NCBI RefSeq assembly: GCF_000189635.1
Contig: NW_002476407.1
Span: forward strand, 434,001 to 498,000
Reading direction: 5' to 3'
Origin: Tetrahymena thermophila SB210
Taxonomy: Eukaryota > Ciliophora > Oligohymenophorea > Hymenostomatida > Tetrahymenidae
DNA: 64,000 nucleotides
The notes under the pieces are model-generated. The model was not told where the DNA came from. It ran no database searches and saw only the letters and a program-made list of their open reading frames with translations. Made by a program: the position numbers and the translations under genes. Numbering within the stretch: the first letter of the stretch is position 1; every line of letters starts with the position of its first letter. Below, one piece after another: positions 20,591 through 62,867 of this stretch.

Positions 20591-21652
20591 TCAATTAGCT
20601 CTCTCAAAGAAATCCTAAACATTGCTTAAAACTACCTTGCCTATTGTTTTACCAGATTCACTAAAAGCGTGAGCTTCAAGTAAATTTTCTAAGTTAAATG
20701 GTTTTTCAATCTAAACGGTTGAAATAAAAATACCACTATCATAAAGGTCACCAATTTTATTTAGTATTTAGTTTTACCTTTCAGGTTCTACCTAAAATAT
20801 TGCACGGGTAAATATACATTCTACGCTTAGCCTAGCTCTCTTTAAAAATAATCCTTGTATATTAAGAGGCTATTCAAAGCCAACAATACCGACAATATGA
20901 CCAAATGGTTTAATTAAAGGGGTAAACTAGTTAAAATATTATTGAGTCATATCAACTGTATTGAAAATATAGTCTAGGCTCTCAATATTAATTTTTTTAA
21001 GCTCTTCTGCAAGAGCGTTTTGATGATTAATCACATAGTCAGCTCCCATTTTCTTACAAAAATTGATAGTTTCAACTCTTGAAGCAGTAGTAATTACAGT
21101 AAGTCCTAAAATTTTTTTAGCAATTTAAATAGCAATGCTGCCAACACCACCAGCACCTCCAACTATCAATATTTTTTTGCTTTAGTTTTGAATTTTGTTT
21201 ATTTCCAAAATACCCAACTCTTCTACTAATGCTTCATAAGCAGTAAGAGCTACTAAAGGTATAGCAGCTGCTTCAGGATGAGTCAGCTTCTAAGGTTTTT
21301 TACCAGCCAGTCTTTCATCAACAATCTGATAATTTGAATTAGAACCTAACTTTGTAAAATCACCAGAATAAATGACTTGATCTCCAACCTTAAAAAGCCT
21401 GCAGTCACTTCCTGTTTGCACAACTACACCACTAGCGTCATAGCCAAAAATAGCAGGGCTGCTTTCAGAAATGTTTTGAGTTCTCATATGCTATGCCCAC
21501 TTATAATCTAAAGGATTTATACTTATAGCCTCAACTCTAATAAGTATATCCTGAGGTCCCAAAGTCTTTATAGGAATTTATATCAATTATAAATCTCCTT
21601 TAGGATCAGTTAATCCAATAGCCTTTATAGTTTATGGAAGAATTTAAGACAT
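20591..21652 (-). CDS. Zinc-type alcohol dehydrogenase / quinone oxidoreductase-like protein, paralog 1
   Basis: Single exon, 353 residues, from the ATG whose complement is 21650-21652 to a TGA at 20591. It matches the zinc-binding ADH subfamily close to TIGR02817 (adh_fam_1) throughout: IKAIGLTDPKGDLQ, ISINPLDYK, FGYDASGVVVQTG, VYSG-type IYSGDF, NYQIVDERLAGKKP, AAAIPLVALTAYEAL, Rossmann motif [35 protein letters not shown] and ESGKTIGKVVLSN. The subfamily belongs to the medium-chain dehydrogenase/reductase group and usually lacks the catalytic zinc ligands, reducing quinones or activated carbonyls with NADPH; the substrate is unknown. Paralogs 2 and 3 lie at 31071-32168 and 34429-35490 on the same strand. 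Cytosolic by absence of targeting signals. Confidence 0.9.
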
Positions 21653-23933
21653 TAAAGTATTTTTATTTAATTTATTTTATTTTTATTATTTAATTTAAAA
21701 AATATTTATATAATTTTTAATTGAGTGTATTTAAATTAATTTAATTGATTTTAACATAAATAGTATTCTCTTAGATTCTTTCTTACTTTATTTATAAATT
21801 AAATCAATTTATTCCTTAAATTTTCTATGTTTGTTCTCTTAAAATTCAATAAATGTAAACCCATATAATTTTTTCAATTTTTAAGTGTAAGAATTTTATC
21901 TATATGAATGAAAATCAACTTATGAAAATTTAAATTTGTATTATTTATTTAATAAATTTAAATAAATAATTTTATTTTTTTTGAAAATTAATAAATTTTA
22001 TAAATATTAAATCGATGAGAAAAAGCTACTATAAAGCCCGATCTTAAATTCAGATGATGAAATGAATATTCTTCTAAAAAAACAACATAAGTTTTTCAAA
22101 GAAAATTAATTTTTTAATTTCTGAAAGTTTCTGTAATTTTTCTCTTGATCTTCTAAATGTAATTACTATGTTATTTTTTATTTTATTAATGTAAGTAAAA
22201 AAATTAAAGCCATTAATTCAAAATTGTCCTAGAAAAATAAAAAAAGATTTCATACTGTAGTGAAATTTTATCACTGGCACAAAATCAGCATATTAGAAGA
22301 GAATATACAATCGGAGCATTTTTAGATCAGTAGGTAGAAAAAACCTCTCTACCTTACAATTTTTTCGCCTTCCAAGTATTTCCCTTGGAGGGCTACATTT
22401 TCAGACTTTTTAATTTTCTTAAAATATATGATTTAGAATATACTGATAAATGAGTATATTTATATGGATATTTAAAGGTATGTATGATATAAATAATTTA
22501 AAAAAAGATCAATATAAAATGAGTCTAATATGCTGATTCCAGTGATAAAATTTCACTACATTATAAATCTCTTAAATAAAATTTTCATCTTAGCATAAAG
22601 AACTCTATAAGAACAAATCTAAATATATCCATCTTTATATTTAAAATAAATTATTAATAAATTACTAAATAAAAATTAGTTCAATTATTTACAAGCAATC
22701 CAATCACATAAATTAAAATTTAAAAAAAATAAATAATATTATTTTTATCTTTTGTTAATTTTTTGTGTATATTTTTTATTAGTATTCATATGATTGATGA
22801 ATTAATAAATAATTATTTTTAATTGATAAAAAGAATACATAGAAATATCTTAAAGATTTATCTTTTTATTAAATTTAAACTAAGTATTTTAAATAATATT
22901 TTCAACATGAAATAAATAATCATTTTAAAATAATTTCTTTTGCTTGTTTCAATTTAAAATAAAATTAAATACTAAATTTTATTAACTTTCTTCAATTACT
23001 TTCATATTTTGCATTTTATCTTTTTTTTGAAAATTAATTATTTTTATCTTCTTAAGACTTAAAATATAAAATAATATTAGACATATTTCATTAATAAGAT
23101 TTGCTAAATTTTATGTTAAGGTATCAAAAAATTTTAATTATTTTTTTACTTTTCTTCACTTAAATATTAATACATCATAGTATTTCAAATTATCTTTTGG
23201 CTTTATTTTTACTTTATTGATATAATAATTTGAATGTTATTATATAAAAAAGTTTAAGTTTTATAAATTATTTTATAGAAGCATTCTTTTATCTTTTGCT
23301 CACAAAATTATATGTTTATTCTTTTCATTTTTTTGATCATTATTCAATAATAGGATTTATTAATTAAACAATCAATATTATACATGCTAATGTAGATATT
23401 AAATAATTAGGGAATAATAATTATATCAATTTACTTATAAAATTTAATCTTTAGTAAAAAGTAAAATATTGCTCTATTAGAATACCACACACATTTGAAA
23501 AATGAAATGATTAAAAATAAATAAAGCTCAAAAGTAGCCTTTTATTTTAGACAATTACTACAGATTCACTTTTAAAAAATGAAATTTTTAAAAACTTAAA
23601 TGATTCAAATATGCAAGAATTTTTTCTAATTTTTCTGATAAAAGCCTTATCAGCTTATTTAAAAATTTTATAAATCTTCTGATCAAGCAAAATAAGTTTT
23701 TTACTAATTATAGTAAAATTTAATTAAATTTTTTTATTTTCTCAACGAACAAAAATATTTTGTTTATGTTTTAATAAATTAAGTAAACTGACCATAAAAA
23801 TTATGATAATTAGACACTTTATATTAGCTATGATGTCTACCTGTTATACTTTAAAAAGGATTAAAATACATCTAACGAAATATAATAAATTAAATTCATT
23901 ATAAATGAGATAAATTAAATAAGTAAATAAAAT
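21653..23933. other. Intergenic region holding a terminal-inverted-repeat element
   Basis: Apart from the element at 22255-22561 this is AT-rich DNA. A short open segment at 22013-22129 (plus strand, containing SPILNSDDEMNILLKKQHK) has protein-like composition but no start or neighbours; it may be a decayed exon. Confidence 0.55.
22255..22561. mobile_element. MITE-like element with terminal inverted repeats, TA-flanked
   Basis: The ends are inverted copies. From 22256 and, reading the other strand, from 22560, both start TGTAGTGAAATTTTATCACT and stay identical for 22 nt. After a small indel they share a further block, AATCAGCATATTAGA. Total length is 307 bp and no reading frame spans it. A TA dinucleotide sits just outside each end, as expected for Tc1/mariner-type TA target duplication. 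The interior has a small hairpin (ccaag...cttgg near 22373-22390). It is non-autonomous. The superfamily is inferred from the TA flanks only. Ciliate macronuclei normally lose transposons during development, so retention is notable. Confidence 0.7.
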
Positions 23934-25406
23934 ATGCAAAAAGTCGAAGAAATAATTACTGAAGAGAATGCCTTATATTCTAATAGGGTATTTGAATACT
24001 TGACATCATTAAAAGGATTGAATTAGAAAGAAAAAGTTGTTTAAGTTGATCTAGAAACAGCTTTTTTAATTGATTTCTCTGTCAAAGAGTTAGAAGATGA
24101 TGAAGAGGAGAGCAAATAATTCTTAGAGTCAGATCAATTTCTTACCTATGTGAGAAGAGGATGCACATTTATTAGATATCCAAAAGATAAAAATGTTTAT
24201 CTTCTAAGAAAAGGCTATTAAAAATTTTGTTATTAGAGCAGCATTCCATAGAAAGTATGTGATGTATTCGATCTGGACTAATTTAATAGAAAAACCTCGC
24301 TTTTAGAAAAATTTTAGTCAATTAATTTACAGAGAACAAATAAAGAGGATGGATCTAATGTATAAATTTCATGGTGTGCTAAATTAAATTGTTGGGTTAT
24401 CTGTTCTAAAAATGAAGCTTACCTTATCAAAAACTTAAGCAAAAAATATCTGGATAAGCTATAACCAGTCATTGTTGAAATGGCTAAGCTTTGGTTCAAA
24501 TTTATTGATACTTTGCCCAAAGAGAAATTAGCTATTTTACAAGAATTTTGTTCCAATAAAACTTTGATTGGTGAAATATGTGGTGCTAACAAACATTTAA
24601 AATAATATGTTACTTACAAAGAAGAATAACTGGTTTTCTTATCTATTGTTGATAATTTTAGTGATCAAATTTGCTATACTCCAATTGAATCAGCTTAAAT
24701 TTTAAATGATTTTGGATTGAATACTGTCAAAATTTAATAGACTGGAGAAATAGCTTCTTATGAAGAGTTATAAAATTAAGTTAATAGAATTAGGTAAGAA
24801 ATAGCAACAGGATCTTTTGAAAATTATGGAGAAGGAGAAGTATTATATTACTGCATTACAGATAAGGAATAAAAAAAGACAGTTGTTTTAATGGAAAAAA
24901 TTAAAACCTTTGAATATTCTTTATTCAAAGCCATTATTAGGCTAATGCCATGCACTTTCAAAAAGAATAAAAATTAAGAATTTAATCTTAAAAAAGTTTA
25001 GTATGCAGAAGAAAACTTATTGAAATACATTGAAAAAGTAAAAGAGAAATTTTTTATGTATGGTAGCTTAGAATTATATTATAAAATGGTAAAATAAGTT
25101 ATTTAGTTTTACTTGGTGGGAGGATAAGTTGATTTATTAAGGTTCTAAGAATATTTTATTTCATTTAAATATATTTTGCAAAAAGAGCAAATAATTAATC
25201 AAGAGAATCTGCTTTTAGAATTGAAAAATACTTTCGGAATAGACATTTTAAAAGAATAGTAAGAAAAAATAGATAAAATTGAGAAGGAAAAACAATTAAT
25301 ATCTGAAAAAAAAGCAAATAAACTTCAGCTTCTATCCACCAAAAAAGATGAAAGTGTACAAAAAGATGCAACTAATATTTTTTAACTAAAAAAAATATTT
25401 GAATGA
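23934..25406 (+). CDS. RNA-ligase-like covalent nucleotidyltransferase
   Basis: One exon, 490 residues. The protein carries an ordered set of motifs of the ATP-dependent RNA/DNA ligase superfamily: motif I KEDGS with the candidate adenylated Lys137, followed by a strand NVQISWCAKLNCWVICS; motif III-like TLIGEICG (Glu214); motif IV EGEV (Glu300-Val303); and motif V EKIKTFEY (Lys322 and Lys324). Spacing and order resemble T4 Rnl1-type RNA ligases. The N-terminal 130 residues and the charged C-terminal 150 residues are not recognised. If active it would seal RNA ends through a lysine-AMP intermediate, in RNA repair, tRNA splicing or RNA processing. Family membership rests on short motifs, so fold-level homology is likely but the exact reaction is not certain. 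It stands alone, with more than 2 kb of empty DNA upstream and a gene-poor stretch downstream. Confidence 0.65.
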
Positions 25407-34428: not shown

Positions 34429-35490
34429 TCACTTTTTTGCATCAAAAAAACCTTAGACATCAGACAAAACAATTTTTCCAATAGTTTTTCCAGACTCTGA
34501 GAGTTCAAGCATTTGCTTCAGATTTTCAATAGAAAACTTTTTAGTGATTTAGATCGTAGAAATTAGTATTTGCTTATCGTAAAGTTCACTAATATGGTTC
34601 AAAATTTAATTTTGCTTTTCAGGTTCTTAGTTAAACATTGAGCGAGTGAACATTAACTCAGCTGTTATTTTGGCTCTCATATAGAATAATGGTTTTAAGT
34701 CAAGAGGCTCATCAAAACCAACAATACCAAGAATATGACCGAAAGGTTTAATTAATGAAGCAAATTAATCAAAATAGCTTTTTCCCATCTCAACACAATT
34801 ATAAACATAATCTAACCCATCAACGTTAATATTTTTTAACTGTTCAGCTAAAGGTTAGTTATGGTTTATTACATAATCTGCTCCCATTTTAATACAGAAT
34901 TGCTTACTCTATTCTCTGGATGCAGTAGCTATTACTGTTAATCCTAAAACATTTTTAGCAATTTAAATAGTCATGCTTCCCACACCACCAGCACCTCCAA
35001 CAATCAGAATTGTTTTATTTAATTTTTATTATTTTCCTGTATATGGAATCCTCATTTCTTCAACTAAGCCCTCATAGGCAGTAAGAGCTACTAATGGAAT
35101 AGCAGCAGCTTCCGAATGAGACAGTTTTTTAGGTTTTATTCCCACAATTCTCTCATCAACTATTTAATAGTTTTAGAAAGAGCCATTTCTTATATAGCTT
35201 CCTGCATAAAATACTTAATCTCCTACTTTAAAAAGCTAACAATCTGAACCTACTTTGACAACAACACCACTTGCATCAAATCCAGCAATAGTAGGATTAT
35301 CTTCTGAAAGATTTTTATTGTTTAGTCCTTAAAGTACTTTGTAATCAACAGGGTTTATACTAACAGCTTCTACTCTAACAAGTAAATCTTTAGGTCCAAG
35401 AGGTTTAATAGGAGTACGAATCAATTACAGTTCACATTATGGACTTATTAGCCCAACAGCACTGGCAGAGGAAGGTATTATTTAGGCCAT
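34429..35490 (-). CDS. Zinc-type alcohol dehydrogenase / quinone oxidoreductase-like protein, paralog 3
   Basis: Single exon, 353 residues, start ATG complement 35488-35490. Core motifs follow the other two: [112 protein letters not shown] and SESGKTIGKIVLSDV. The N-terminus is the most divergent (SSASAVGLISPQCEL in place of the lysine-bearing AIGLTDPKG), which may affect the first strand. Same subfamily (close to TIGR02817) and inferred reductase role. The three copies are not strictly in tandem, because a phosphatase and other sequence intervene between 1 and 2. Confidence 0.9.
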
Positions 35491-45151: not shown

Positions 45152-46435
45152 ATGTCCTCTCTATCGTTGGAAAAAAATGCAATCTCACAAGAAGATAGCT
45201 TAGAAATAATGTCTCCCCAAATTTATTCAACTGGATGCATAGATAATTATAATGTAAGCACGATTATCAAACCTCGTAAAGTGATTGCAAAGATGAAGGC
45301 GAATAATCGCAAGGGATATAAAAGAAAGCAAATAGAAATAGTTCCAATAATTACACTTCAGTTATAAAATTAAAATAAATATTTGTTATATGGATTTATA
45401 GAGATAGAATCTTACTACAAAGATTATCCTTCACCATATGAAATTGATTTAGTTGACTTGACAAATGCGCATACTGGAGTTTCTTCTATTGAAAGATCTA
45501 CAAATGGTATGGATATGGTGGTAAATTTCTATACAAAAGCAAGTTCAGGGCTTAGAGATTTTTAATTTTTGATTGATCATTATCAAACAATTCCAGACCA
45601 ACAATACCAAGAATTAGCAAAATATTTAAAAGAATATAAAGTTGTTGCAAACAAATGTATGTAACATATATCAGATTTATCTATCAAGCTAAAGCAGAGA
45701 TTAATTTCTTATGAGGAAATTCAAGAAACTTAAGAATAGTTTAGGATTGCATTTGAAGAATTCGTAAAGTCTTAAGTTGGTGAAGAAGATTTTTATTTAA
45801 CTAGTCTCAGCTCTCTGAATTTAGATTTTTTTGAAGTTGAAGTAAAGTAAACTAAAATGTCATTAGCTCTGTTAAGCTTAATTGGAGTGGAACCAAGAAA
45901 TTTCGAGATGTCAATTCTGAGGAATTAAGCCCCATTTTTAGAATAATTTGGATTTAAAAGATTGAAAAATGTGATTTAATAATTGTTTATAACTGTCAGC
46001 GATGCATATGAGTATGTAATAGATGATTAATATTATACTGCCGATAATATACCTTTTTATGGCTAAAGCTAGATAGTTTTATTTGACTGGAAGGAAAGGC
46101 CTTCCTGGTTGAGTAAAGAAGAATGCTCTGGCGTATTAGTTAAATTGAATGTTTCATTGTAGTAAATAAAAGCCATACTAGAAATAAGATCTTAAATGAG
46201 TAGCTAGAAATAGCTTGAATATGGGATGTTAGATGATGATTACCACTTTGAGTATACAGTTGAATCTGAGATTTTTATAGAAAGATATTATCCGGAAGCA
46301 TTTAGTGATCAAGTCAATAAAAAATCCTTGCAAATTAAGCAAGAGATGATGCAGAATTCAGATTTTACAAATTTTATGAACTAAGCAAAAAGTGAAAATG
46401 AAAATAGTAATATCTCAGAAGAAAATGTAAACTGA
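45152..46435 (+). CDS. Unrecognised ciliate family protein, paralog A
   Basis: Open from an ATG at 45152 (427 residues) to the TGA at 46433-46435 without an intron. It is the first of four related genes (A-D) on this strand. Landmarks shared with the others, in order: a basic patch (KMKANNRKGYKRKQ), a strand-like block YGFIEIESYYKDY, then SGLRDFQFLIDHYQ and YQELAKYLKEY, LLSLIGVEPRNFEM, RPSWLSKEECSGVLVKLN and a closing IFIERYYPEAF. No known domain was recognised, and there is no signal peptide or membrane segment. The exon-like segment at 44975-45037 may add an N-terminus. The tail is Asn/Ser/Glu-rich. The real start is uncertain; the coding frame is not. Confidence 0.75.
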
Positions 46436-47341
46436 TGATATCAATAAATTATTTAATAAACAATCAATTTTTTGTTGCGTATGAAAAAATTAATTTATAT
46501 TTTAAAAACTTGTAAATTAGATGGTTAAAATATTATTTATTTATTTATTTATCTATCTATTTATCTATCTTTATGCTTATTTTTACTTCTAATTATTTAC
46601 TTTCAATGTCTACATGGCTATAACTAAACAACTAACTACCTCAAGTTTTTGATTTAATTTTTAATCTTTTTTCTGATACCTGATAATCAAGATTAATAAT
46701 TCCCCAATCTATTTTACTATTTTTTAAAAATAAAAAAGAATTCATCAAAAGAACTTGTAGGATAGACAAAATTTTTATTAATATAATTAGTTATAATGCT
46801 TTTAACTCACAAACATTTATTTTTAGCTAAAACATTCGCCTGCTAGTTGGTTTTCCTATTCAAAAGCATACTTTTTTTGTTCTCTTGTTATAATTTTTTA
46901 TATTTGAATAGAATTACTAAATCCAAAAAAATTAAGTAAATAAATCATCAATTCAATTTAATAAATTGAAATTCAAAGATATTTTTCTAATTAATTTTGC
47001 ATTAGAAGTAATAATTATTAAAAAATCCACTCAATTTTTATGTAATTAAACATATCTATTAGCATTATTTAGTAATTTCAAAAAGATTATAAATTGTTTC
47101 CACTACACTAATTATTTTCCTCCCTCCTTACTTACATAGTTTCATAGTACTAAAATAAATTTTTTTAAAATATTCTCTCAAAATATATCTATCTACCTAA
47201 CAGTTTAAAATAAAAATATATAGTAAGTAATTGCAATTGTGTGGTGAAAATTTGTTTATAATAAAATTTTACTTTTATTTTATTGAAATAGAAAAAATTA
47301 ACACATTCTAAATCCTATTTATAAAAAAGTAAAAACAGAGA
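46436..47341. other. Intergenic region between paralogs A and B
   Basis: AT-rich. It contains a ttta/tcta microsatellite at 46534-46573. No gene seen. Confidence 0.6.
46534..46573 (+). repeat. TTTA/TCTA microsatellite
   Basis: Units of ttta pass into tcta (about nine tetramers, one interruption). Confidence 0.85.
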
Positions 47342-48553
47342 ATGCTCACAATTACTGATGAATAAAGTAAAAATATTTTTAATACAGGGTTAGAGTAAAT
47401 ATTTGAAAGAGAAGAAAATTAATCAAACTCTCTAGATTAAGTATAATTGCCTGTTCAAAAAATTTAGCTGAAAAAATATATAGCAAAAGTTAAGCCTTCA
47501 AAAAGTAAATTATACAAAAAGAAATAATTACATATAGTTCCTATTGTTTACTAAAGCTTGGAAATAAGTCACTATTGCATCATATTTGGCTATGTCATAT
47601 TAGAAAGTTAATACAGAGACTACAAAAGTTAGTCGCAAATAAATCTATAAAATAACGGGATATCTTGCCTCATTAAATTAAATTCTATTGAAAATAAAAT
47701 TTCAGAATAAAGCTGGGTATTTAATTACTAAATCTTAGGATAAAGTGGAATAAAAGATTTCTCTTTTCTGATTGATCACTATAAAAAATTTTCTAATTAA
47801 ACCTATAGATAATTAGCTTTATAATTAGAAGAGTATTAATAAAAAACACAATAAATATTAAATTATATAACTGACACAAGTTTGAAAATTAATTCAAGAA
47901 TCATTGATGAAAATGATGTTCATAAAGCTTATTAAGATTTTAGTATTTTTTTTGATAATTATGTGAAAGCTAATTATTCTGAGTGTGATTTTATATCCAC
48001 CTCTAAAATCATAGTTGATTATGCAAGTTAAGATTTTATGTTCAAAGATACTACAGTATCATATTCTACTTTAAGCTTGTTAGGAGTAGAACCATAAAAC
48101 TCAGAAATCATGTTTTAAAAATCATTTTAGAATTTTAATTTCTTAATAGGCTAAGAGAGATTATAGAATATAATTAGAAAGCTTTCTTTTGCTTTATCTG
48201 ACCAAACAATTTTTGAGTTTGTTCAAGAATATTTTACACTTGATGCAATATTATTTAGTGCCAAATCAACATATGAAATAGTTTATTGGCCTAATGCCCC
48301 TAATTGGATGGATAAAAAATCATGTTTTGGAGTAGTAAATAAAATAGATCTATCCTTAAATTAGCTGAAATCAATCATTTAATTAAGATAAAATTAGACA
48401 AATTCTGATTTGGATTTGAACTCCCTAGAGGAAGATAATAGTTTTGAGTATTAAGTTCAGAAAGAAATATTCCTACAAAAATTCTACCCTGATCTATTTT
48501 TTGATCCATAAACTATGAAATCTATTAAGCTAAAAGAAGATATATAAAAATGA
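47342..48553 (+). CDS. Unrecognised ciliate family protein, paralog B
   Basis: Single exon, 403 residues, ATG 47342 to TGA 48551-48553. It follows paralog A block for block: basic patch KVKPSKSKLYKKKQ, IIFGYVILESQYRDYK, SGIKDFSFLIDHYKKF, YRQLALQLEEYQQ, STLSLLGVEPQNSE, WPNAPNWMDKKSCFGV followed by LSLNQLKSII, and the end motif IFLQKFYPDLFFD. Identity with A is modest (by eye near one quarter to one third) but collinear, so the duplication is old. The N-terminal 40 residues are acidic and differ from the other members. No catalytic motif or Cys/His cluster is conserved among the four, which suggests a structural or binding role rather than an enzyme; that is inference. Confidence 0.8.
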
Positions 48554-51500
48554 ATCTACTTTTTATCATATTAAAATGTGTAATTAAATAAATATAAAAA
48601 TTAAAATTAAAGTTAAACATTTATTTCCACTATCCAAAATAATTTCGAAAGAAAAAAAGTAAAAATAATGAAAAATGTATAAAATTTTATTTACATACAT
48701 TCATTTCTAAATTGTTCAAATAAATAATTTTGTCAAAAATTTAATCAGTTTATAAAGCAGTTTATTATTGAGAAATTATTTCTAAATTGAATTAATTATT
48801 ACAATTCATTTATACAATTTGTTGAAATTGAGAAAAATAGTTTTAAATATTAAATATTTTTATTAGTCTTATTTAATGGTAATTCGTAGCTTTTTTGATT
48901 TAAAAGCAGGCAAAAAAATTATCTTTTCTTTTTATTAAAAAATTTTAGATTTTTTAAGAATAAAAATATTTTATTACTAAAATAAAAAAATATTTGAAAC
49001 AAACTGATTATTCTATGTAAAAATTGAAAATAAAATATTAGAAATAAACGATTTCTGCCAAATTTATTATAGACAGGTTTATGAATCTCGCTCGTATTTC
49101 ATCTAAAACAAATAAATAAAGAAATAAATGATTTACTTAAAAATTTTTAGATGAATACTTAAATAAATATAAATTTTGTTTTTTTCAAATACTAAATTTT
49201 AACATGACAAAAAAAAATCTATTCTATGATAGATTCAGTTTCATATAATCACAACTATTTTTTTTACATTTATCACGATTTAGATAGATATATTGATTTT
49301 TTAAATACAAATCTATTATTTATTATTTTGCATTAATAACTACTTTTTTACTTTTTAGAATGTTTAAAGAATTTCAAAACCAAATTGATTAACTTTAAAA
49401 AAAAATTATCCTTACTTAAAAATAAAGAGGAAAAAGGAAAATTTTAATTAATTTGTTTAAAATACACATTTTACAGAGACTCTTACTTTCTTTCAATTAA
49501 ATAAAAAAAGAAATTAAGAAATTTTACTTAAATTCTGATAAAAGCTTTGTTTTTTTCTTTCGTTAGCCATAAAATCAAAAGATTTAATATAGAAAATTAC
49601 TTTTAGCTATGCTTTTATATTGTCTCGGTACAAGTGTATATATAAGCTTAACTTTCAATTAAAATTAATGCTTATATACGTATATAGATATTTATGTAAA
49701 TAAGTAAGTAAGTAAGAATGAATTTGATTAAATAAAACCCTGAGAAGATGATTTTCAGTAATATGCTGATGCATAATCTATACTAAAGTAATTTATAATT
49801 TAAATATATGGGGGATTATAAGAAACTAACTTTATTATTATATTTATTAGCATTGATGATATTTACCATGAATTTTAATTTAAAGAGGTACCTTACAGAT
49901 ATTAAGATTTATAATTAGAATCTATATAAAATCCTACTTTTATTTTTTTTGAAATAAAAAATTTCTTTTGAAATTCTTCTATTAATTTTATTTTGTTTGT
50001 TTATGGTATTCTGTTATCTATAATAACTCGAAGATTTTCTTTAAAAAGTATATTTAGATAAAATAAAAGAAATAAATAAATAGAACGATTTTTGATTTAC
50101 TTACTTTGTTTTTGTAAATTATTACATTAATTTATTTTTTTTCTTTAGATTAGTTTTGATTTGTGGAAATAAATAAATAAACATTTTTAAATAAATTTTA
50201 TTTAATTAGTGATTTGTAAGTGAATTGTTGTTCAGATTGTTCTCAAAATATTAATGACAAGTATGTTTATAACATTAGATTTTAGCTTTTGTTTTGGTAC
50301 TTTTATGAAGGGTTTGCTTAGACTGATTTCTACAAATGAGATTTAACTAATTTAATTATTTTATTAAACATAATTATAAACAATATTTGCTATATTTAAT
50401 TTTTAGGGATTACACTTTTACATTTAGAGATGGCCTTACATTGATACAGTTTGCAATTATATTTATTTACATTAAATAAAAAATTTAATATTTATTATTA
50501 AGAAAAGCCAAAAATACTTACATTTTTTAACGAAAAATCAGTGGAATATTCTTTGCAACAAAGAAAAGATAAATTAATATACATTTTCTTAAAAGTAAGT
50601 CATTACCACAAATCCAAAATTATTTTCATACTTCAAAATATTGGCAATAAATACTAAATTTAACTTTCAAATTACTTGTTAATATAAATTTATTAATACT
50701 ACCTAATAGGATTTAGTGAAGTTTTAGCAGAATAAATACAAAAAACCATTTTAAATAAAAACTTTACATTTATGCTTAAAATTTAGGTTAAAAAATTTAT
50801 TACTTTTAAAAGCATATCAGTGTAAATGGTTAAAAATTTTATCCGATAATAATATAAAAAAATAAATACAAAGTAAAAGATATCTAGAGTAAAAGAAAAG
50901 TTACTAAAGTATTTATTCTATTTTTAGATACTTGCTGATATTTATTATCAAAAAAAAGTAAACTTTTAAAAAGTACATAAAAAATGTAACCAAAATAACT
51001 AGATTGTGATACTTGTTTTATATAAAAATTGGTCAAGTAAATTGGACACAATTTTTATGCATCTAATTTTTTAAAATTGACTTTTTTTTAATGATATAAT
51101 CAGTTGAACTGATTTGGTTCTAGTTTTAATTAGTTTAATCCAATATTATTATATTCGTTTTTAGGGGATTACTTATTTTAATTGATGTATCAAGAAAATT
51201 CTTTATAGCTTTGTTTGGTGAAAATTTAATTTACTTCCCAGTCATAAATTATAAAGAGGATTTAGCTATTTATAAATATATAAGCAGATAATAAAGTTAT
51301 TTTTAAATGATGTTTTTAGTAATCTAAGTCTTTGTGTTTTACATTTCCCAGTTTTTTAATTTCAGCTTTTTTATTTTACAAACTACAAATATCTACAAAA
51401 ATTGAGTTAAACTTTTAACAAGTAAAAAATAAAGTAAGGGAAAAACGAATAAAATTATATTATTAAATTTGTCTTATTTAAAAAAAATTTTCGTTCTCTA

Positions 51501-51929
51501 TAATTTAATTTGTGTTTGTTTGTTTGCTTTTTTACCTATGATAAATTAAATAAAATATGCATTTAATCTTTTTAATAAACCTGATTTGACCCTAATTTTA
51601 TAAAATGTTACTTAAAACTCGTTCTGGGTAATTTAGAATTAGAAAAACATCTGTAAATTTAAATTAAGACAGACAGACTGGCTGTTTGGATAACTTCTTC
51701 AAATTAAAGGAGATGCTATTTAAAAAAGCAAGCAAGACTTCAATTAATAAATTGACTTTATATTTAAATGTCTTTTATTAATAAAGTTGACTAATTTTTT
51801 GCTAATAAAGCAGAAACTAATTACTAAATATTATATAAACATTAAAATATTAAAAAATAGAAATAAAACAAAGACTAAGGAGTAAATATATTTTAAATTA
51901 CAACACATCACCAACCCAAATACTTACCA
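48554..51929. other. Intergenic region between paralogs B and C, with a doubtful small gene
   Basis: Mostly AT-rich DNA. A possible small membrane-protein ORF starts at 49808. Further protein-like pieces occur at about 50210-50340 (NCCSDCSQNINDKYVYN) and 51165-51300 (LILIDVSRKFFIALFGE, YFPVINYKEDLAIYKY), each just after a possible 3' splice site or in short open frames. They may be exons of one gene that I could not assemble. Confidence 0.45.
49808..50095 (+). CDS. Possible small membrane protein
   Basis: 95 codons from an ATG to TGA 50093-50095. The start context is unusual for this DNA (atgggggattat). The N-terminus MGDYKKLTLLLYLLALMIF looks like a signal peptide or first membrane segment, and a second hydrophobic stretch follows (EILLLILFCLFMVFC). 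It ends Gln/Lys-rich. Chance frames of this length are common when only TGA stops translation, so the case rests on the signal-like start and on the protein-like pieces downstream. No family recognised. Confidence 0.3.
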
Positions 51930-53774
51930 ATGTCTAATTACATCACTCAACAACAACAGTTTTAAGATCACTCTAACTATCCAGCATCTTTTTATGAATA
52001 ATATTTAACTTTCACACATAATAATATTAATAATAATACTTCCTAAGAGATTAAGGATGATAGCTGCTACGATGACAAACAATCTCAAATCTACGAAGAA
52101 AGCTTTTCATAAATGAACAATTAAGATATTTAATAGCAAACTAACCTTCAGTAACAAATTAAGACTTCATGGATTTAAAGCATCTACCAAAAAGTGAGGT
52201 CAAAATAAGCTAAATCTGATTAAATATGTTCATCCTCATCTGAATTAACTGAATCAGAAAACAACATATTTGAAAACATTGACTTGTATTATGATGAAGA
52301 AGATAAATTTATGATGAGCGATGAGCAATGGAAAAACATGCATTATAGCGCAATCAAAATTAATTAGCCAGATTAGCATAATATCTAATTAGAAAACGAA
52401 ATCTATTTTCAATAATTTATAATGAAAATTGAGAGTGCTAAGATGAAAAAAAATTCCTCCAAGAAATTTGTAAAAAAAATGCTAAATGTTTAACCAATAT
52501 TCTTCAATGAAGCATCCACTCACAATAAGTTTACTATTTTCGGAGGTAATTAGCTAGAGAAGTATTACAGAGACTATGAGCATTACAGTGATCAAAATTT
52601 GGCCATTCAAAGTAATACTATAGTTGACATTAACAAGATCATTTAAAATCATCAAGACAATCTTGTTGAAGTTTTCTTTGACTCCAAAGGTAAAAGCGGG
52701 CTGACTGACTTCAGGTTTATCGTAAATCATTTTTCTAAATAAAATGGAAAATAATATCAGGAACTAGCTGAGATACTGAAAAATTATTAATGCGTAACCA
52801 GCGTTTAGGTTGCTCATATGAATAAAATAAATCGTTAAATAAAATTTTAAATGATTTCTGAAGACGAAATATCAACAGCTTATCATCAAGCTGACTAATA
52901 TTTTAAAAATTATATCAAGACCAAATATTTGTCAGATTCTGAGAAAAATCCAAATTCTAAGAAATACTTGATGTATTCCCAAACGCGCAGTAATTTTAAC
53001 TCCATGGACTTAGAATTGCATTCAAACACATACACCAAGGATTTACTTGACTTGCTTAAACCTGATTCTTAGATGCTTGATTTTATCAAATCTTTTAATC
53101 AACCATTTTAAGTCTCACAAGGCGAAAAAAGACTTTAAAGTTTGATGAACATTGTCAAACTCTATTCTAGCCTAGAAAACATTCAGAATGTTCCAATCAC
53201 ATTTTTGGCAAAGGATGGAATTGAAATAACAACAACTGTAGATTATGAAATAATTATTTGGCCCGACTAACCTGAGTGGATGGTTCCATTAGATTGCTTT
53301 ACTATACTTCTTAAATTGAATATTTAAGATTACCAAATACAAAAGCTTAGCTTACCTCAGAGCATTCACAGAAAAAATTAAAATAAATACTCTTCATTAT
53401 CATCCGCATCTATATAATAATAATAATAATAATAATAATTATAATAACAAAGTTAAAATCCATAATAAAATGAATAATTTTTTAATATTAGGTTTTTTAA
53501 TAAGAATGATATACTTTCGCAAAATAATTTTGAGTTAAAAACGGAAAATAATCTTTCAGATAATAAATTTGAATTTTTGGTTCATTCAGAATTGTTTATT
53601 GAAAAGTTTTACCCTAATATTAATAATAAATAGAATATAGAATATTTCTAGAATAAAAAGGAGGAGAAAGAGAAAGTAAGCAATCCTCCTTAATCAAATA
53701 AGACAAAAAATATAAAGAAATAGAAAAATAAAAAATAAAACAATAAAAAAATTATAATAAATAAATTATTTTGA
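51930..53774 (+). CDS. Unrecognised ciliate family protein, paralog C (longest member)
   Basis: Single exon, 614 residues, ATG 51930 to TGA 53772-53774. It begins with a Gln/Asn/Ser-rich, then acidic segment of about 160 residues. The shared blocks follow: KMKKNSSKKFVKKML, FTIFGGNQLEKYYRDYEHY, KSGLTDFRFIVNHFSK, YQELAEILKNYQC, LLDLLKPDSQMLDF, IIWPDQPEWMVPLDCF and ELFIEKFYPNI. A Gln run made almost only of TAA codons interrupts the late part (53410-53445), and the tail is Lys-rich. Codon choice (more C-ending codons, more CAA in the first part) resembles a moderately expressed gene. Same family as A, B and D; function unknown. Confidence 0.82.
53410..53445 (+). repeat. (TAA)n run encoding poly-glutamine in paralog C
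   Basis: Eight consecutive taa triplets, then tta, two taa and caa, all in the reading frame of paralog C. In this genetic code they are Gln codons; in the standard code they would be consecutive stops. Confidence 0.9.
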
Positions 53775-56700
53775 AATATTTTAAAATACTAACAATTTTA
53801 TTAGCTACTTCTTCTATCTATCTATACTTACTTACTAATTTATGATTGTTTAAATTAAATTAACTAGTCTTAAGTTCTATTAAATGGAATTTTTGATGTT
53901 TTGCATGAACATTACTCTATCTAATTTATTAAATAATTATATATGTTAAACTTATTAAATTACTTTAACTTATGAGCCAATTAAAACATGCATACATAAT
54001 AGCTGTATTTATTTTTGATTTCTATTTTAAAATGAATAATTAATTAATAAATTTAAAATTTTTGAATCAATCATTTTAAAAAAATATTTATCCGAATTAA
54101 TAAGATAAAATATAAATATATAAATATACAATTATAATTTTGTTAAAAGTATCTAAAAAGCAAATGATATTCAATTAGACAAAAGTTGTGCGTATATGAT
54201 GCAATATTTAAATAAAATAAAAACTATATAAAACTTTTCGAACAAAATGTAAATTTATACCTAAAACAAAATTAAAATTAAGTCAAAAATTTATCATTAA
54301 AATAAAATTATTGTTTTTTCATCTATTATTAGATTTGGCACTGTTATTAAATCCAATATTTTAATTTTTACATATTTAAGGATGGATTTTTCATTTATAT
54401 TTTGATCAAATCATGTCTATTTTTACTTATTATATTTGTATTATAAATTGCGTCATTTAATTTAAAATAAAGAAAAACCCAGTATTAACTTTATAATACA
54501 CATTTTGATAATTTTTTCATAAGGAAAGAGAGTCATTTAAATTCTACTAGCTAAAAATAATTCGAACAGCTCACAAAAATTTATTTAATAGATTAGTAAC
54601 ATGCAAAAACACAATCAAAGTTAATTATTCAATATTTGAATGAGTTCTAGTTACTTTAGAGAAATTGAACTTCTGGATATTATTTATCCTTACAATTTAC
54701 TAATACAAATCAAATAATTTATGAATTTATAATTTTTTATTGATTTACTGTTAATTTCAGTATTAACTATCAAAAATTATAACTCTTGGCTTTATTAGTT
54801 ACCATTTAAATTTTCTTTTAATTAAAGTGAATACATTTAAAAACATTTTTATTTGTTTGTTACAAAATACTATTTTAATACTTTTAGAATATATATTAAA
54901 CACAAAATAAATACTCATTTCAAAGAACCTTAACTTGTGTTTTGAATGCGCTTGACTAATATTAAATAATATTTAAATAAGAAAAAACTCCACCATTTAT
55001 TTTTATTTAAACAAAATGAAAATGATATTTTATGAATTAAAAGTAACATACAAAATCTCTAATTGTTTTGAATTATATGTAATTAAAAACATCTTTTTAT
55101 TTCAATTAATACTTTTTGATTTGAGAAATATTAACCAACATCTATAAATAATTTTTTTTATATAGGCTTGTTTAAAAATTAAGAAAACAAATCTCTACGG
55201 ACAATATTAATCCTTACAACTAATTATCAGTCAGATTTAATCATTCATGAAAAATTAAATTCACTAATTTTAATAAATAAATTTCTATTTGATTTAAGTA
55301 TTATTATAAAATCTACGGTTTTTCAATACCTTCACAAACAAAAATTTTAACTTATTACAAATAAAATCTTAAGTGAGCCATTAAATACTTCATTTTTGCC
55401 TTTGTGTTTTTTTTTAATTTTCATAAAATTGATTTTAATAAATAAATTTCCTCATACTAAATTTTGCTTCTCATATCATTAAATATTTTACCTTTTAGTA
55501 TACTTTTAAAAAAATTTATTGAGATATATTTGCTACATAAATTATTTTATCTTTTTAAAAAGTAATAATTACACAGTTATTACTGTTTAACTATGCTTTA
55601 TTAGCAATTTTATATTAGCATTTTGGACTAAAAAATAAATGATAAGTACACTGAATACTTTTTAAAGGTATTATACTTGCAATTAACAAAAATACAAAAT
55701 ACTTTATTCTGAAAGTAAGTTGTAAAAATGTATTAATATTGCATATAAAATTATATTTACTTAAAATTGCATTGAGGTGTGAATGGTATTCTATTTTATC
55801 TGTTATTACTTAACCGTTTAATATAACATTCAGAATTTTTCTATCATATTTTACTGATTTTTAAACAATAATTTACAATGGACTAGTTAATTAATTTGAT
55901 TTAATTACTTGATTTTTTTTTAAAGCTCGAAATTTTTTAATTCTAGCTTAAATGAAATTTTATAAAAAATAAAAATAGTTTTTTAAGAATGTACGTTTTT
56001 TTATGAATATATTTAAAGGTGAGATTAAAAAAATCATTTTAACAAATGTTTTAAATACAAAAAAATTAAAACAAAAGGGATTGCTTTAATCAGATAAATA
56101 GATACTGAATAGGTATATAGATTAGGTGTTTGATTAAAACCCTAAATATATATCTTGGTTCTACTAAATTAAATATTCAAAGTTAAAATGTTAAGGAAAT
56201 AAATATATTAAGGTAATGTTACTTAACAATCACAAATTTTTAATTAACCCATCTATTTGTTTTGATAAGGGAAAAAGAATATTCTGTAATCAAATTTAAA
56301 GAATTTGCAAAATTTAGGTCAGGTATAATTATCAGTTGATATATATATATATATATGTATTTCAATTTCATGTGTAAATTATCTTTGAGTAAATTTAATT
56401 ATCATTAGATTTACATTTTTTTTAAAGATTATTCTAAATATCTTCTTAAAAAGTGCTTTAAAAAAAAAACGTGTTGGATTAAGATATAATTCACTTTTAT
56501 ACGTATGTCTATTCAATAATTTTAAAAATTAGACTAGCATTAATCAATAATTGCATATTTGTTAAATTTATGTTTTTATTTGATGAAATAGATTACTTGT
56601 ATAAATTGAAAATAAATCAGAGTAAAGTGGTTTTTGAAAAAATAGAAAAATCTTGGATGATTGATTATTTATTAATTAAAATCAATGTTTAGTTCACATT

Positions 56701-57610
56701 ATTTTTACATTTCCAAATATTTTGTTTAAATTACTAAATGATAATTTACATGAATGAATAAAATACCAAATATTTATTAAATACCTCAATTTTCCTATTC
56801 AATATATTCTAAATATTATTACAGGAAAAAATATATTGTAAACTTTAAAATTATAATTTAAGGATAAAGCTGTTTGTTGTTTTTACAAACATTCAACGCT
56901 GATTGATTATTGAAGCTTATTTACAGAAGTGACTTTAATTTACTCGTTATAAATTTTGATATAGATATATTTTATGAGTCTTTGAAAAGCATATTTATTT
57001 GAAAACCAGTGGTAGGGAAAAATTTTTACTTATTATTTTATTGTAAGCTGGATAACAAATTTAATAACTAAAGAAGCAAAATACAAGAGAGAATTTTCCT
57101 AAAATACATCTTACATTTAAATATTAAAAATGCTTTATTTTTTACATTGAAGCGCGAAGAAGATGGTAGGTTTTAGGAATATTGTTTTAAGCATCATAAA
57201 GTATATAATAGCCAAATTTTAATGCTAATCGGTCGAATTCACAAAAGAAATTGAAATTAGATTGATTAAATTTTTCTTTTCTTGAGTTTACATTAAAATT
57301 TATTTGAGAAACTAGAACGGAAGTATATTTAAATACAAAATCAAATTGATCTTAGTTTAGTTTACTAGAGATTATCAGTAGAGATTATTTTTATTTCTAA
57401 CTTAATTTTTATTTGATTCTTACTCTATTTAAATTTAGCGCAATTACCAATGCGTATAATTAAAACTTAAAAAAAACAAATTAAATAAACAATAACTGCC
57501 AAAACAAAAAAACATTTAACACTATAATATTTTAAAAAAAATATCATAGCTTTAAAATACTAAAAAAATTCATTTTAAATAAAGAACCCACTATTAAATT
57601 ATAAAAAATA
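53775..57610. other. Intergenic region between paralogs C and D
   Basis: It is 3.8 kb of AT-rich DNA. A TA run lies at 56339-56358. A protein-like piece at about 57148-57258 (TLKREEDGRFQEYCFKHHK, IGRIHKRN) ends in a TGA and has no start; it may be a remnant. Another open piece with moderate composition occurs at 54520-54640. No complete gene. Confidence 0.5.
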
Positions 57611-58981
57611 ATGAACACTTACAATTTTTAAGTAAATATTGAAGAAATATATTTAGAATAAAGATCATTGAATGATTCTCAAAACCTAATGTGTGATTCA
57701 GAAGATTTGAAGCATGTCACCTAAGAAACTCTCACCAACATACATTATTAACACTAAGAAAGTCTCAGCAAAAAAGATAACCATTATAACATTACTTCTG
57801 AAGAGAACTCTTATTAAATGAATGACTTTGAAATGGTTGATCAACATAATCAAATTTAATTACCAATCAATATTAATTAAAAAGATAAAAGCTCCAACTT
57901 TAGTTAAGTGCTTGGCGTAAAAAAATTTATCATTAAGACAAGAAGAACTTCATCTAAGCGCTTCAAAAGAAAGCAATACTAATCATTATATACTCACTTA
58001 GAAGATTAATACCCTAATAACAACAAATTTATCATTTTTGGGTATGTAGAAATTGAAGCTACTTATTCAAATTTTTCTGAAAATTTATTTGAAGAAAACT
58101 CGTCACTGTATAAAAGACTACTTTAAATAAATCATGCTGTTGATAATAAAATATAAAGAAGAGTAGAATTAAATTTAGATTGCATTGGAAAGAGCGGACT
58201 AACAAATTTTACTGAGTTAATCACCTATTTTAATTCCCAACAAAATTAAAACTTTTAATAACTCGCATAACAACTTAGTATTTACTAACCATCTTTACTA
58301 AAATAATTAGCCCACTTAAAAGAAATAAAAAAGATGATTACTAAAAAACAAATTTCTGAATGCAATCTCGTAAACGCCTTTTCAAACAGTCACAATTATC
58401 TAATTGAATATTTAAATGAAAAAAATAATTTCCTTTCAAAATCAGATTACAGCCATGTTTTGTTCTTTAGATCAAACATGACCTTTATTGATACAGAAAT
58501 TTACCAATCTCACTATTCTTATTCTTTTTTAGAACTTCTTGGTATAAACATTGAAGATGCCAAAAATACTATCCAAGTTTTCTCACCTTATCAGATAAAA
58601 AATGGTGAATAAAGATTAAAAAATGCAATTACATTTTTATCAATAATCAATTCCAAACAAAAATTCCATACTGCATTACCATACACAATTACAACCAAAG
58701 ATGGAATATAAATAGATTGCACAATTGATGTTGATATTATCTCCTCTGAAGATAATCCTTCATGGATGAATAGTCAAGACTCCTTTATGATGATTATTAA
58801 CTTTAATATAAACGAATAATAACAAAAATAAATTTTCGAAACACGCAATCAAGTGCTTAACTTTAGAGATAGCATTTATAAAAAATAATCTATTCATAAT
58901 AAAGGTATAGAGGAATAAGTTTAATTGGAAATTTTCTTACAAAAGTATTACCCTAAATCTTTCACTAATATCTGTGGATGA
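57611..58981 (+). CDS. Unrecognised ciliate family protein, paralog D
   Basis: Single exon, 456 residues, ATG 57611 to TGA 58979-58981. After a Gln/Asn/Ser/His-rich N-terminal segment of about 90 residues come the family blocks: VKKFIIKTRRTSSKRFKRKQ, FIIFGYVEIEATYSNF, GKSGLTNFTELITYF, FQQLAQQLSIYQP, FLELLGINIEDAK, DNPSWMNSQDSFMMI followed by NINEQQQ, and the end motif EIFLQKYYPKSF. It shares GKSGLT with paralog C, so C and D may be the closer pair. No membrane segment, signal peptide or known domain. It lies 1.2 kb upstream of the aspartic protease gene on the same strand. The family is real by mutual similarity; its function is unknown. Confidence 0.82.
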
Positions 58982-60164: not shown

Positions 60165-62867
60165 ATGAAAAAAGCTTACAGCATAGCTATATTAGTATTA
60201 TTATTCTTCTAATGTGTACATTTGGCAGGTGATATTATTTATTAGACTATCTCAAAATAATATATTTTTAAATGAGGATGAAATAATCAATATCTCTCTC
60301 TTTCTCTCTCTTTATCTACGCACTTAACAAATTTGTATTTATTATTATTCAAATAGATGAAGGTACTCTTGAAGATGTATAAAAGGAAATAGAAGAAGAT
60401 CCTTTTGTATATTTAGATGAATAAGGTTAAAAGCAGAAAATAAATAATCCTACTGACGAGTTTTATTACAAGCGTATTCATACTGTTTAATTGGAAGGTA
60501 GCACAGGTGAAACAGTTTATTGGGTTAATTTATATATGGGATCTCCTCCTCAAAAGTAAACAGCAATTATAGATACAGGTAGTAGTTTACTTGCTTTTCC
60601 TTGCTCTTAATGTGAATCGAATTGTGGTAATCACTTGAATAAGCAGTATAACCTCACTCAATCTCTCACTGCGCTTAAAATGTCATGTGGTGCATAGTTT
60701 GATAATTTTAGATGTCAAAATTGTAATGGTAATCAATGCACTTGGGGAGTTAGTTATATGGAAGGTTCAAGCATAGGAGGATTTATGGCTATAGATTATA
60801 TCGTCTTTGGAGATGAAATTTAAGATTATTTAAACAGCAAAAATAGATAAAATCTAACTGAGATTGAAGATTCAGAATATTTGAAGTATATTAATCATGA
60901 GAAAGTTTAAATTCCCTTTGGGTGCACAACAAAAGAAACTCATTTGTTTAAAACGCAAGTTCCAGATGGTATTATAGGGTTAGCACCTTCATCTAACTAA
61001 TATAACAATCCTCCAAATATAATTGACAGAATCTTCTCTTAGCACAAAGATAATGATGAATAGCTAGTATTTTCCTTATGTCTAAATTCTTTGTAAGGAG
61101 GTTATATGAGTGTAGGAGGATATAATCATGAGCTCCACATACCTGGATCTAAAACAAAGATTATTAAATACAATAAAAATTCAAATTTCTATGATGTCAG
61201 TGTCAAGGAAGTTAGGGTACTTTTATTTTATTTTTATTTACCTATTTAGACAATCATGCATACTTGCATATCTAATATTAGAATCTCGATAATTTCTTTT
61301 AATGTATGTATGAATCAATCAACGAATATTAAACATAAAATTCATTTCACTATTTTTAGGTTATAAGAAAAGAAAGAATAAATAAAAAAATAAATAAATA
61401 AATAAGTATTTTATTTTCAAACAAAACAGATAATTAAACAAAATAAAATAGAATTTTTTCATTTAAATTTACATTAAAACTTTAAATGAAAATTTTACTT
61501 TTAAATGAAGTATTATTTTTATTTTATTGATTGATTATTTATTAGTTAATTGATTGATTAATTGATTAATTTATACGCAGCTTTTTACTTTTAAAGTATT
61601 TTTATTTATTTTGCAATATTCTTTTGCTTTTAATTATGAATTTATTTTTCAAATTCATCAAACATTATTTTTATAATAGATTGAAGGATAATTTGTCACT
61701 AATAGCCTTCCACATCCTATTTTAGACTCTGGAACAACTCTTGTGTTTGGTCCCAAATCATTTATTGAGTAATTTTTTAAATTTTATATATCAATAATGA
61801 AAATAATTTTTATTATTTTTATATTAATTTTTGCTTACTTGTTAATAATTTTTTAAAATTATAAAGTCCTATGATTGATGCAATCAATTAGCTGTGTAAA
61901 AATAACTAAAAATATAAATGTGGAAATGCTAAAGAAAATTTCAATCGCTAAATAAGGTGGCTCTATAGAAAATCAGATGAGTTTCCAACTGTCGAAGATT
62001 TTTTCAACTCCTTCCCTGTACTTGAATTTGATTTCGGAGATAACATTATTGAATGGAAGGCTCATGGCTATTTATACATTGATCCAGATAATAATAATCC
62101 TAATTTATTTTAATTTGCATTTGAAACACATCCAAGTGTTTCTAAAGTATATCTTGGAGGTCCCTTTTTTAAGAATTATGATATATTATTTGACAAAAAT
62201 AAAGGTGAAGTTCATTTCACACCATCCAGCTGCAAATTACCTCATGTTAACAGTGTATTAATGAATCTTCATTCAGCAAAAATTAGAAAGACTGTTATGG
62301 ACAATTAATACATTGAAGATTTGAGAAAATTTTAAAATACTTACAATTTTACAAATGACTTTTTCAAAAATGAAACTAAAAAAGATTAAAAAGATGAAAA
62401 AAATAAAGAAGATAATGACTAATAAAACAAAGAAGTTTAAATCATTGATAAAATAAAGTCTCATGAAAAATTTTGTAAAGTTTATTTTTTTAAAATATTA
62501 TTTACACATTAACTAACTTAAAATATTTTACTAAATAAAAGTTATTTCTGTAATTTATGTACTTGTTCTTTTGATTGTAATCGTATGTATTTGCTTATGT
62601 AGGAAGTCTTCAGGTACTGATAATAAAGATCTAATACCTTTATAAAGCATTGAAGTTGGAATACATGATAACAGTAACATGTAGGATCTTCCATAAGATA
62701 AAGACGAGCAACTTAGAAGCGAAGAAGATAATCCATATGGTTATAAGAATGACCCTGTTTATAACCATGAATAGATACATTAGGATGATGAAGAAAGCTA
62801 CAAAAATAGTCCTAATACTGCTATGAGTGACGAAGAAAAGGAAAGATAAAAAGCACTTTAGGAATGA
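60165..62867 (+). CDS. Membrane-anchored pepsin-type aspartic protease
   Basis: Five exons (60165-60228, 60357-61216, 61680-61768, 61867-62474, 62542-62867) give 648 residues. Exon 1 is a signal peptide (MKKAYSIAILVLLFFQCVHL). The catalytic core has both A1-family active-site motifs, DTGSS (Asp94) and DSGTT (Asp324), plus YWVNLYMGSPPQKQ before the first, GIIGLAP in the middle and the flap-region WGVSYMEGSSIGG. A Cys-rich insert follows the first motif (CSQCESNCGN...CGAQ...CQNCNGNQC). Near the end, FFISVIYVLVLLIVIVCICLC is a transmembrane helix, followed by an acidic cytosolic tail of about 85 residues. This is the layout of a type I membrane protease of the secretory or lysosomal pathway, as in plasmepsin V and BACE-like enzymes. 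The 463-bp third intron gap is unusually long. Strong call; substrate unknown. Confidence 0.92.
60292..60316 (+). repeat. CT-rich microsatellite in intron 1 of the protease gene
   Basis: tctctctctttctctctctttatc lies within the first intron (60229-60356), a pyrimidine-rich tract upstream of the acceptor aaatag. Confidence 0.8.

Follow-up and report, generated by a model that had tools for sequence, protein, structure and literature searches.

A large, apparently undescribed protein family of Tetrahymena thermophila with a predicted PAS-like core, represented by a cluster of four paralogous genes

Results

Genes and features of the locus

A telomerase stretch of the genome analysed here matches the TERT chain of PDB 6d6v (T. 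thermophila TERT) in 129 of 131 aligned residues, both differences being at the edge of the aligned piece; the source is taken to be T. thermophila or a very close relative. The window, i.e., the whole stretch of 64,000 nucleotides of T. thermophila DNA, contains four open frames on the forward strand, found by translation with the ciliate code (code 6) exactly where the original prediction had placed them: gene A (45152..46435, 427 aa), gene B (47342..48553, 403 aa), gene C (51930..53774, 614 aa) and gene D (57611..58981, 456 aa). All four terminate with TGA, the sole stop of the ciliate code. The start of C is uncertain because an earlier in-frame ATG is present at 51768. The G+C content is 24-29% in the four frames vs. 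18.8-18.9% in the intergenic gaps.

The four proteins share the same order of parts: (i) an N-terminal tail; (ii) a basic patch; (iii) a block around G[YF]..E, a putative small domain; (iv) a predicted helical hairpin; (v) a predicted PAS-like domain; (vi) a closing, predicted helix with an F[LI]EKFYP-like motif. The basic patch, delimited by alignment and pattern count, lies on the forward strand at 45269..45331 in A (residues 40-60), 47471..47527 in B (residues 44-62), 52425..52481 in C (residues 166-184) and 57920..57973 in D (residues 104-121). A bipartite-NLS-like pattern is found in A, B and D and is not matched in C. The closing motif of A, FEYTVESEIFIERYYP, is located by alignment at 46247..46294 (+), residues 366-381, and is mostly helical in the AlphaFold2 model.

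Elsewhere in the window, Pfam recognises two zinc-binding dehydrogenase genes (20591-22213 and 34429-35490, both on the reverse strand) and, downstream of D, an aspartyl-protease gene (60272-61489, forward strand). An RNA_ligase match at 23766-25406 (forward strand) is barely above the cut-off (28.7 vs. 27 bits), and an open frame of 1704 aa at 13945-19059 (reverse strand) has no Pfam match at E 0.01.

Paralogy and shared blocks

The four genes are true paralogues, as had been proposed: BLASTP gives E values from 1e-20 to 1e-69 for four pairs, i.e., A-B (34% identity, 1e-69), C-D (29%, 3e-30), A-C (25%, 4e-29) and B-D (28%, 1e-20). In the four-sequence alignment A and D are 22% identical. A profile was built from 14 family copies, none of them from the window. 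This outside-window profile recognises A, B, C and D with E values of 2.5e-92, 2.1e-87, 1.2e-57 and 9.6e-69, respectively, while the next frame of the window reaches 0.036 and the best control values are 0.052 (reversed DNA) and 0.011 (residue-shuffled frames). The shared blocks are thus real and not a chance similarity of low-complexity sequence, since E values of 1.2e-57 or better are to be compared with 0.011-0.052 for the controls. With the same profile, no frame of the window beyond A-D exceeds the control range, and the gaps between the four genes hold no further copy.

The outline of the predicted motif list is retained, although the agreement varies from motif to motif in the four-sequence alignment. 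The closing hF[LI].[KR][FY]YP is present in all four proteins, as is [QE]LA, whereas the stricter QLA is found in two. Three of the four have Y.DY (YSNF in D), [KS]SGL (QSGI in B), the following H[YF] (YF in D) and WM (WL in A). LxLLG is found in two, A having LSLIG and C having LDLLK. The «Cys/Ser-rich block» was overstated: it comes down to one position, which is Cys in A, B and C and Ser in D. A fixed core with variable N-termini is indeed what the alignment displays for A-D, the N-terminal tail being the most variable part. Its low-complexity character holds for B, C and D (25-27% of Gln plus Asn) and fits A less (13%). It must be noticed that several divergent members elsewhere in the genome (L063, L064, L067-L070, L079 and L081) carry, after the FYP-like helix, a short [CA]-x-Y motif (e.g., RRCEYV, CSYK, CGYR, ASYK) which is absent from A-D.

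Family size across the genome

The cluster had been taken for a four-member family; in the same genome (101 Mb, 445 contigs), members were found at 55 or more loci, spread over 26 contigs. The count was obtained by protein searches with A, D, C and one copy each from contigs C259, C338, C439 and C442, merged by start position, with a threshold of E <= 1e-3, two of these searches adding no locus; it is a lower bound because only the best candidates were scored and introns were ignored. Contigs carrying at least two members account for 41 of the 55 loci: C442 has 6, C259 and C338 have 5 each, C138 (the contig of the window), C173 and C279 have 4 each, C91 has 3 and five others have 2; the remaining fourteen have 1. 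Members of the same contig are mostly neighbours, except for the C439 pair and the C78 pair, which are about 90-135 kb apart. The 55 loci include weak rows, i.e., C78:195522 (2.2e-4), C328 (2.3e-6), C113 (1.2e-6 and 3.0e-6) and C81 (9.9e-7); those on C17, C78:103426, C340 and C135 are upheld by the family profile. Identities to A range from 20 to 33% in a 20-member alignment.

The third copy of C91 (L018, C91:1556663-1560361) occupies two frames, on either side of a short segment, LTKLQIEHIQDIKTQLN, that is present twice; an intron, a small duplication or damage to the copy may explain this. It was excluded from the alignments, the tree and the profiles.

The family alignment found no relative in one scan of viral sequences, and one plasmid search with A returned no match. 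No publication on the family was found among open-access PMC articles by title and abstract start, which leaves room for work printed elsewhere, and a term search of PMC6205968 matched 0 places. No plausible Pfam family was obtained either: the best E values are 0.049 for the four full proteins, 0.0052 for 20 cores and 0.48 for seven distant members. A-D belong to an apparently undescribed family, as the original prediction held; the family is a large one.

Duplication history and selection

In a tree of 24 rows, A pairs with B (83/93) and C with D (81/63), and the rows of C91, C403 and C338 form one group each. A single clade of A-D is not demonstrated, nor is it rejected (AU p 0.136), and the branching suggests that the four genes need not stem from one local amplification. 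The A-B and C-D pairs are close to synonymous saturation. For three recent copies of C259, dN/dS values are 0.106/0.55 = 0.19, 0.111/0.644 = 0.17 and 0.078/0.212 = 0.37; the core of these copies is under purifying selection. The tree and these ratios agree with the old duplications under constraint that had been suggested. According to PMC6564038, tandem duplication and fast evolution are frequent among species-specific Tetrahymena genes; leucine-rich-repeat genes contribute most to such tandem duplication. No word beginning with «PAS» occurs in the main text of that paper.

Predicted fold

The original prediction had recognised no known domain. A PAS-like fold is nevertheless predicted in the C-terminal half by two AlphaFold2 models and Foldseek. 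The models of A and D, for which the input alignment consisted of the four window sequences alone, have a common order of elements: a long helical hairpin, strand-strand, three helices, strand-strand-strand and a helix. The model of A has a mean pLDDT of 50.9, with ten-residue means of 69-83 at residues 281-350 and 43-67 at residues 211-280; the N-terminal block around G[YF]..E is at about 24-39. The model of D (residues 185-456) has a pLDDT of 71.2 and a pTM of 0.67, and its PAS part is at 70-89 except for 43-48 at model residues 131-150.

The predicted hairpin extends over 45599..45775 in A (residues 150-208) and 58247..58420 in D (residues 213-270), where the ten-residue pLDDT is 73-92, most values being 84-92. 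The PAS-like domain is placed by model and Foldseek at 45788..46156 in A (about residues 213-335, the first half being weak in the model) and at 58451..58807 in D (about residues 281-399), and by alignment to A at 47987..48355 in B (about residues 216-338) and 52962..53327 in C (about residues 345-466). All these features are on the forward strand.

Foldseek was run against PDB with both models. The best 50 of 917 matches of A are all PAS/LOV-containing, 47 by title, the other three being 4gcz_A, 4gcz_B and 9hkf, which we take to be of this kind; so are the best 50 of 838 matches of D, 43 by title, the other seven being six phytochrome A rows and 6ywr, which we take to be of the same kind. The classes among the listed PDB matches are PAS, LOV, LOV fusions, phytochrome A, AHR-ARNT PAS-B and haem PAS. 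The scores are modest: the best E values are 1.7e-3 (A) and 9.8e-4 (D), TM-scores normalized by target are about 0.3-0.53 for single-domain targets, and the rmsd is 5.4 or more. Of the best 20 rows of BFVD, 10 bear one of the names histidine kinase, GGDEF, PAS or response regulator; two of the other half are named RGS and the rest are unnamed or of other kinds. From these models, the core of the family very likely has a PAS fold.

Comparison at the sequence level

Pfam gives no PAS match for the four full proteins, 20 cores and seven distant members, and no PDB sequence falls below E 0.0098. With hhalign, the PAS half of the family compared with 15 PAS domains plus a seed has a probability of 0.4% (E 0.15). 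The PAS domains used for the profile comparison were taken from plasmid records. In local mode, the family PAS part aligns colinearly with the PAS profile at a score of 14.5 vs. 9.9 +/- 1.5 for column-shuffled profiles, i.e., about 3 SD above them (1 of 100 shuffles as high), while the N-terminal block (10.2) and the hairpin (7.7) score lower; in global mode 39 of 100 shuffles are as high. A scan of prokaryote genomes with a ciliate PAS stretch returned 87 pattern stretches and no relative.

Genome-wide, Pfam PAS_9 is matched only at L065 and L066 (a lower bound, introns being ignored) and in no family member. The nearest PDB entry for the L066 stretch is FixL.

Several other identities were considered. 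An RGS domain, brought up by an RGS14 PDB sequence match (E 1) and by the two RGS-named BFVD rows, both from Catovirus, was rejected on two grounds: no more than three long helices precede the PAS part in the model, and the sequence match lacks significance. The match to biotin ligase 2ej9 (E 0.0098) covers 62 hairpin positions and reads as helix similarity. The weak Pfam and NCBIfam rows belong to assorted families, each matched by one or two members of the present family.

Neither a kinase nor another output domain was found by Pfam in the four full proteins, 20 cores and seven distant members. A pattern scan of 28 members did not return the flavin-binding Cys motif of LOV domains, and in the PAS half the fullest Cys and His columns are occupied in 9 and 5 of 24 members, respectively. 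Cofactors such as those used by LOV and haem PAS domains are therefore not indicated, since there is neither a LOV Cys motif nor a conserved Cys or His column.

Basic patch

The basic patch is present in all 24 aligned members, with 8-13 Lys or Arg per 28-39 residues. The bipartite-NLS-like pattern is found in 10 of them, three of these in the window, whereas about 4.7 would be expected from shuffled rates. A bipartite nuclear signal is not claimed as a family-wide feature because only these 10 of 24 fit; the other 14, C included, lack the pattern. A nuclear role and contact with nucleic acids are perhaps suggested by the basic patch, which is the one feature pointing that way.

Discussion

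As PAS is a sensor fold, its prediction here leads to the proposal that A-D may be signal-responsive regulators missed so far by sequence databases. The reading which we prefer, tentatively (a probability of about 40%), is that A-D belong to a large family of PAS-domain sensor-regulators in T. thermophila, with a basic N-terminal output, possibly nuclear. In this reading, the proteins are probably signal-responsive and perhaps nuclear regulators. Flanking helices mediate pairing in many PAS proteins, and a member of the family would dimerise through the hairpin and the PAS domain. The pocket or the surface of the PAS domain would bind a small ligand or a partner, and the change would be relayed to the basic N-terminal part, which might enter the nucleus and contact nucleic acid or chromatin. 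Duplication, to a large extent in tandem, would have expanded and diversified such a one-protein sensor-regulator. A stronger version, i.e., more than 50 ciliate-born one-protein PAS sensor-regulators that carry a new kind of DNA- or chromatin-binding N-terminal domain and make up a major layer of gene control missed by sequence annotation, is in our opinion unlikely.

Protein binding is the sole role of many PAS domains. The family might then consist of PAS-like scaffolds that reside in the cytoplasm, at the cortex or at membranes and not in the nucleus. Their patch would bind RNA, tubulin or acidic lipids and their PAS domain would do no more than bring partners together, with no transcriptional role. 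The occurrence of the bipartite pattern in only 10 of 24 members and the lack of a known DNA-binding domain by Pfam (four full proteins, 20 cores) agree with this; however, no finding points to the cortex or to membranes, and no result separates such scaffolds from nuclear regulators. This explanation is judged somewhat doubtful.

The fold itself could be ciliate-specific, its likeness to PAS being a matter of low resolution: a mixed beta-sheet flanked by helices would have been matched to a common PDB fold. The four-sequence input alignment, the modest Foldseek scores, the lack of a Pfam PAS match and the hhalign probability are in line with this. On the contrary, the models of A and D, distant in sequence although built from the same input, agree in the order of elements and in the class of their matches, and the local colinear profile score stands clear of the column shuffles; a fold of this kind is thus quite improbable.

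It is very improbable that A-D are fast-evolving tandem duplicates with species-level roles (e.g., towards pathogens or competitors), their PAS domain being a diversifying recognition surface and not a sensor of cell state: the clustering of loci on shared contigs, the low identities to A and the habits of species-specific Tetrahymena genes (PMC6564038) are in line with it, but the core of the three recent C259 copies is under purifying selection and variability is greatest in the N-terminal tail.

In a standard model organism in which PAS_9 is matched at only those two places (again a lower bound with introns ignored), at least 55 additional PAS-like loci would alter our view of how T. thermophila perceives its state. 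The family also provides concrete candidate genes for functions in growth, starvation or mating.

Comparison with known PAS systems

The S-box proteins of the FixL type, including L065 and L066 of the same genome, resemble the family in predicted fold class and differ from it in that PAS_9 is matched at these two places and in no family member; moreover, Pfam finds no kinase or other output domain in the family (four full proteins, 20 cores and seven distant members). Aureochromes, i.e., bZIP-LOV photoreceptors, are represented by their LOV structures among the listed fold matches of both A and D, whereas the family has neither the LOV Cys motif (28 members) nor a Pfam bZIP match (four full proteins and 20 cores).

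The association of a basic N-terminus with a PAS domain is also that of the bHLH-PAS proteins AHR and ARNT, of which the PAS-B domains are among the listed matches of the D model, and of fungal Zn2Cys6-PAS regulators such as Ert1. Unlike these, the family has no Pfam bHLH or Zn2Cys6 match in the four full proteins and 20 cores.

The oomycete and algal bZIP-PAS proteins (PsBZPc32 and PlBZP32; PMC7273347) are, like the family, soluble eukaryotic proteins of about 400 aa with a basic region N-terminal to PAS; the 392 residues of PlBZP32 include bZIP at 246-294 and PAS at 304-376. The family differs in its spacing and in its extra N-terminal block, and Pfam finds no bZIP in the four full proteins and 20 cores. 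Moreover, the bZIP-PAS protein described in PMC7273347 is the only one among the 50 bZIPs of its species, vs. a family of at least 50 members in the present case. Membership in the bZIP-PAS or bHLH-PAS families is not supported because their DNA-binding domains are not found by Pfam; by analogy, the family may nevertheless work like bZIP-PAS or bHLH-PAS regulators.
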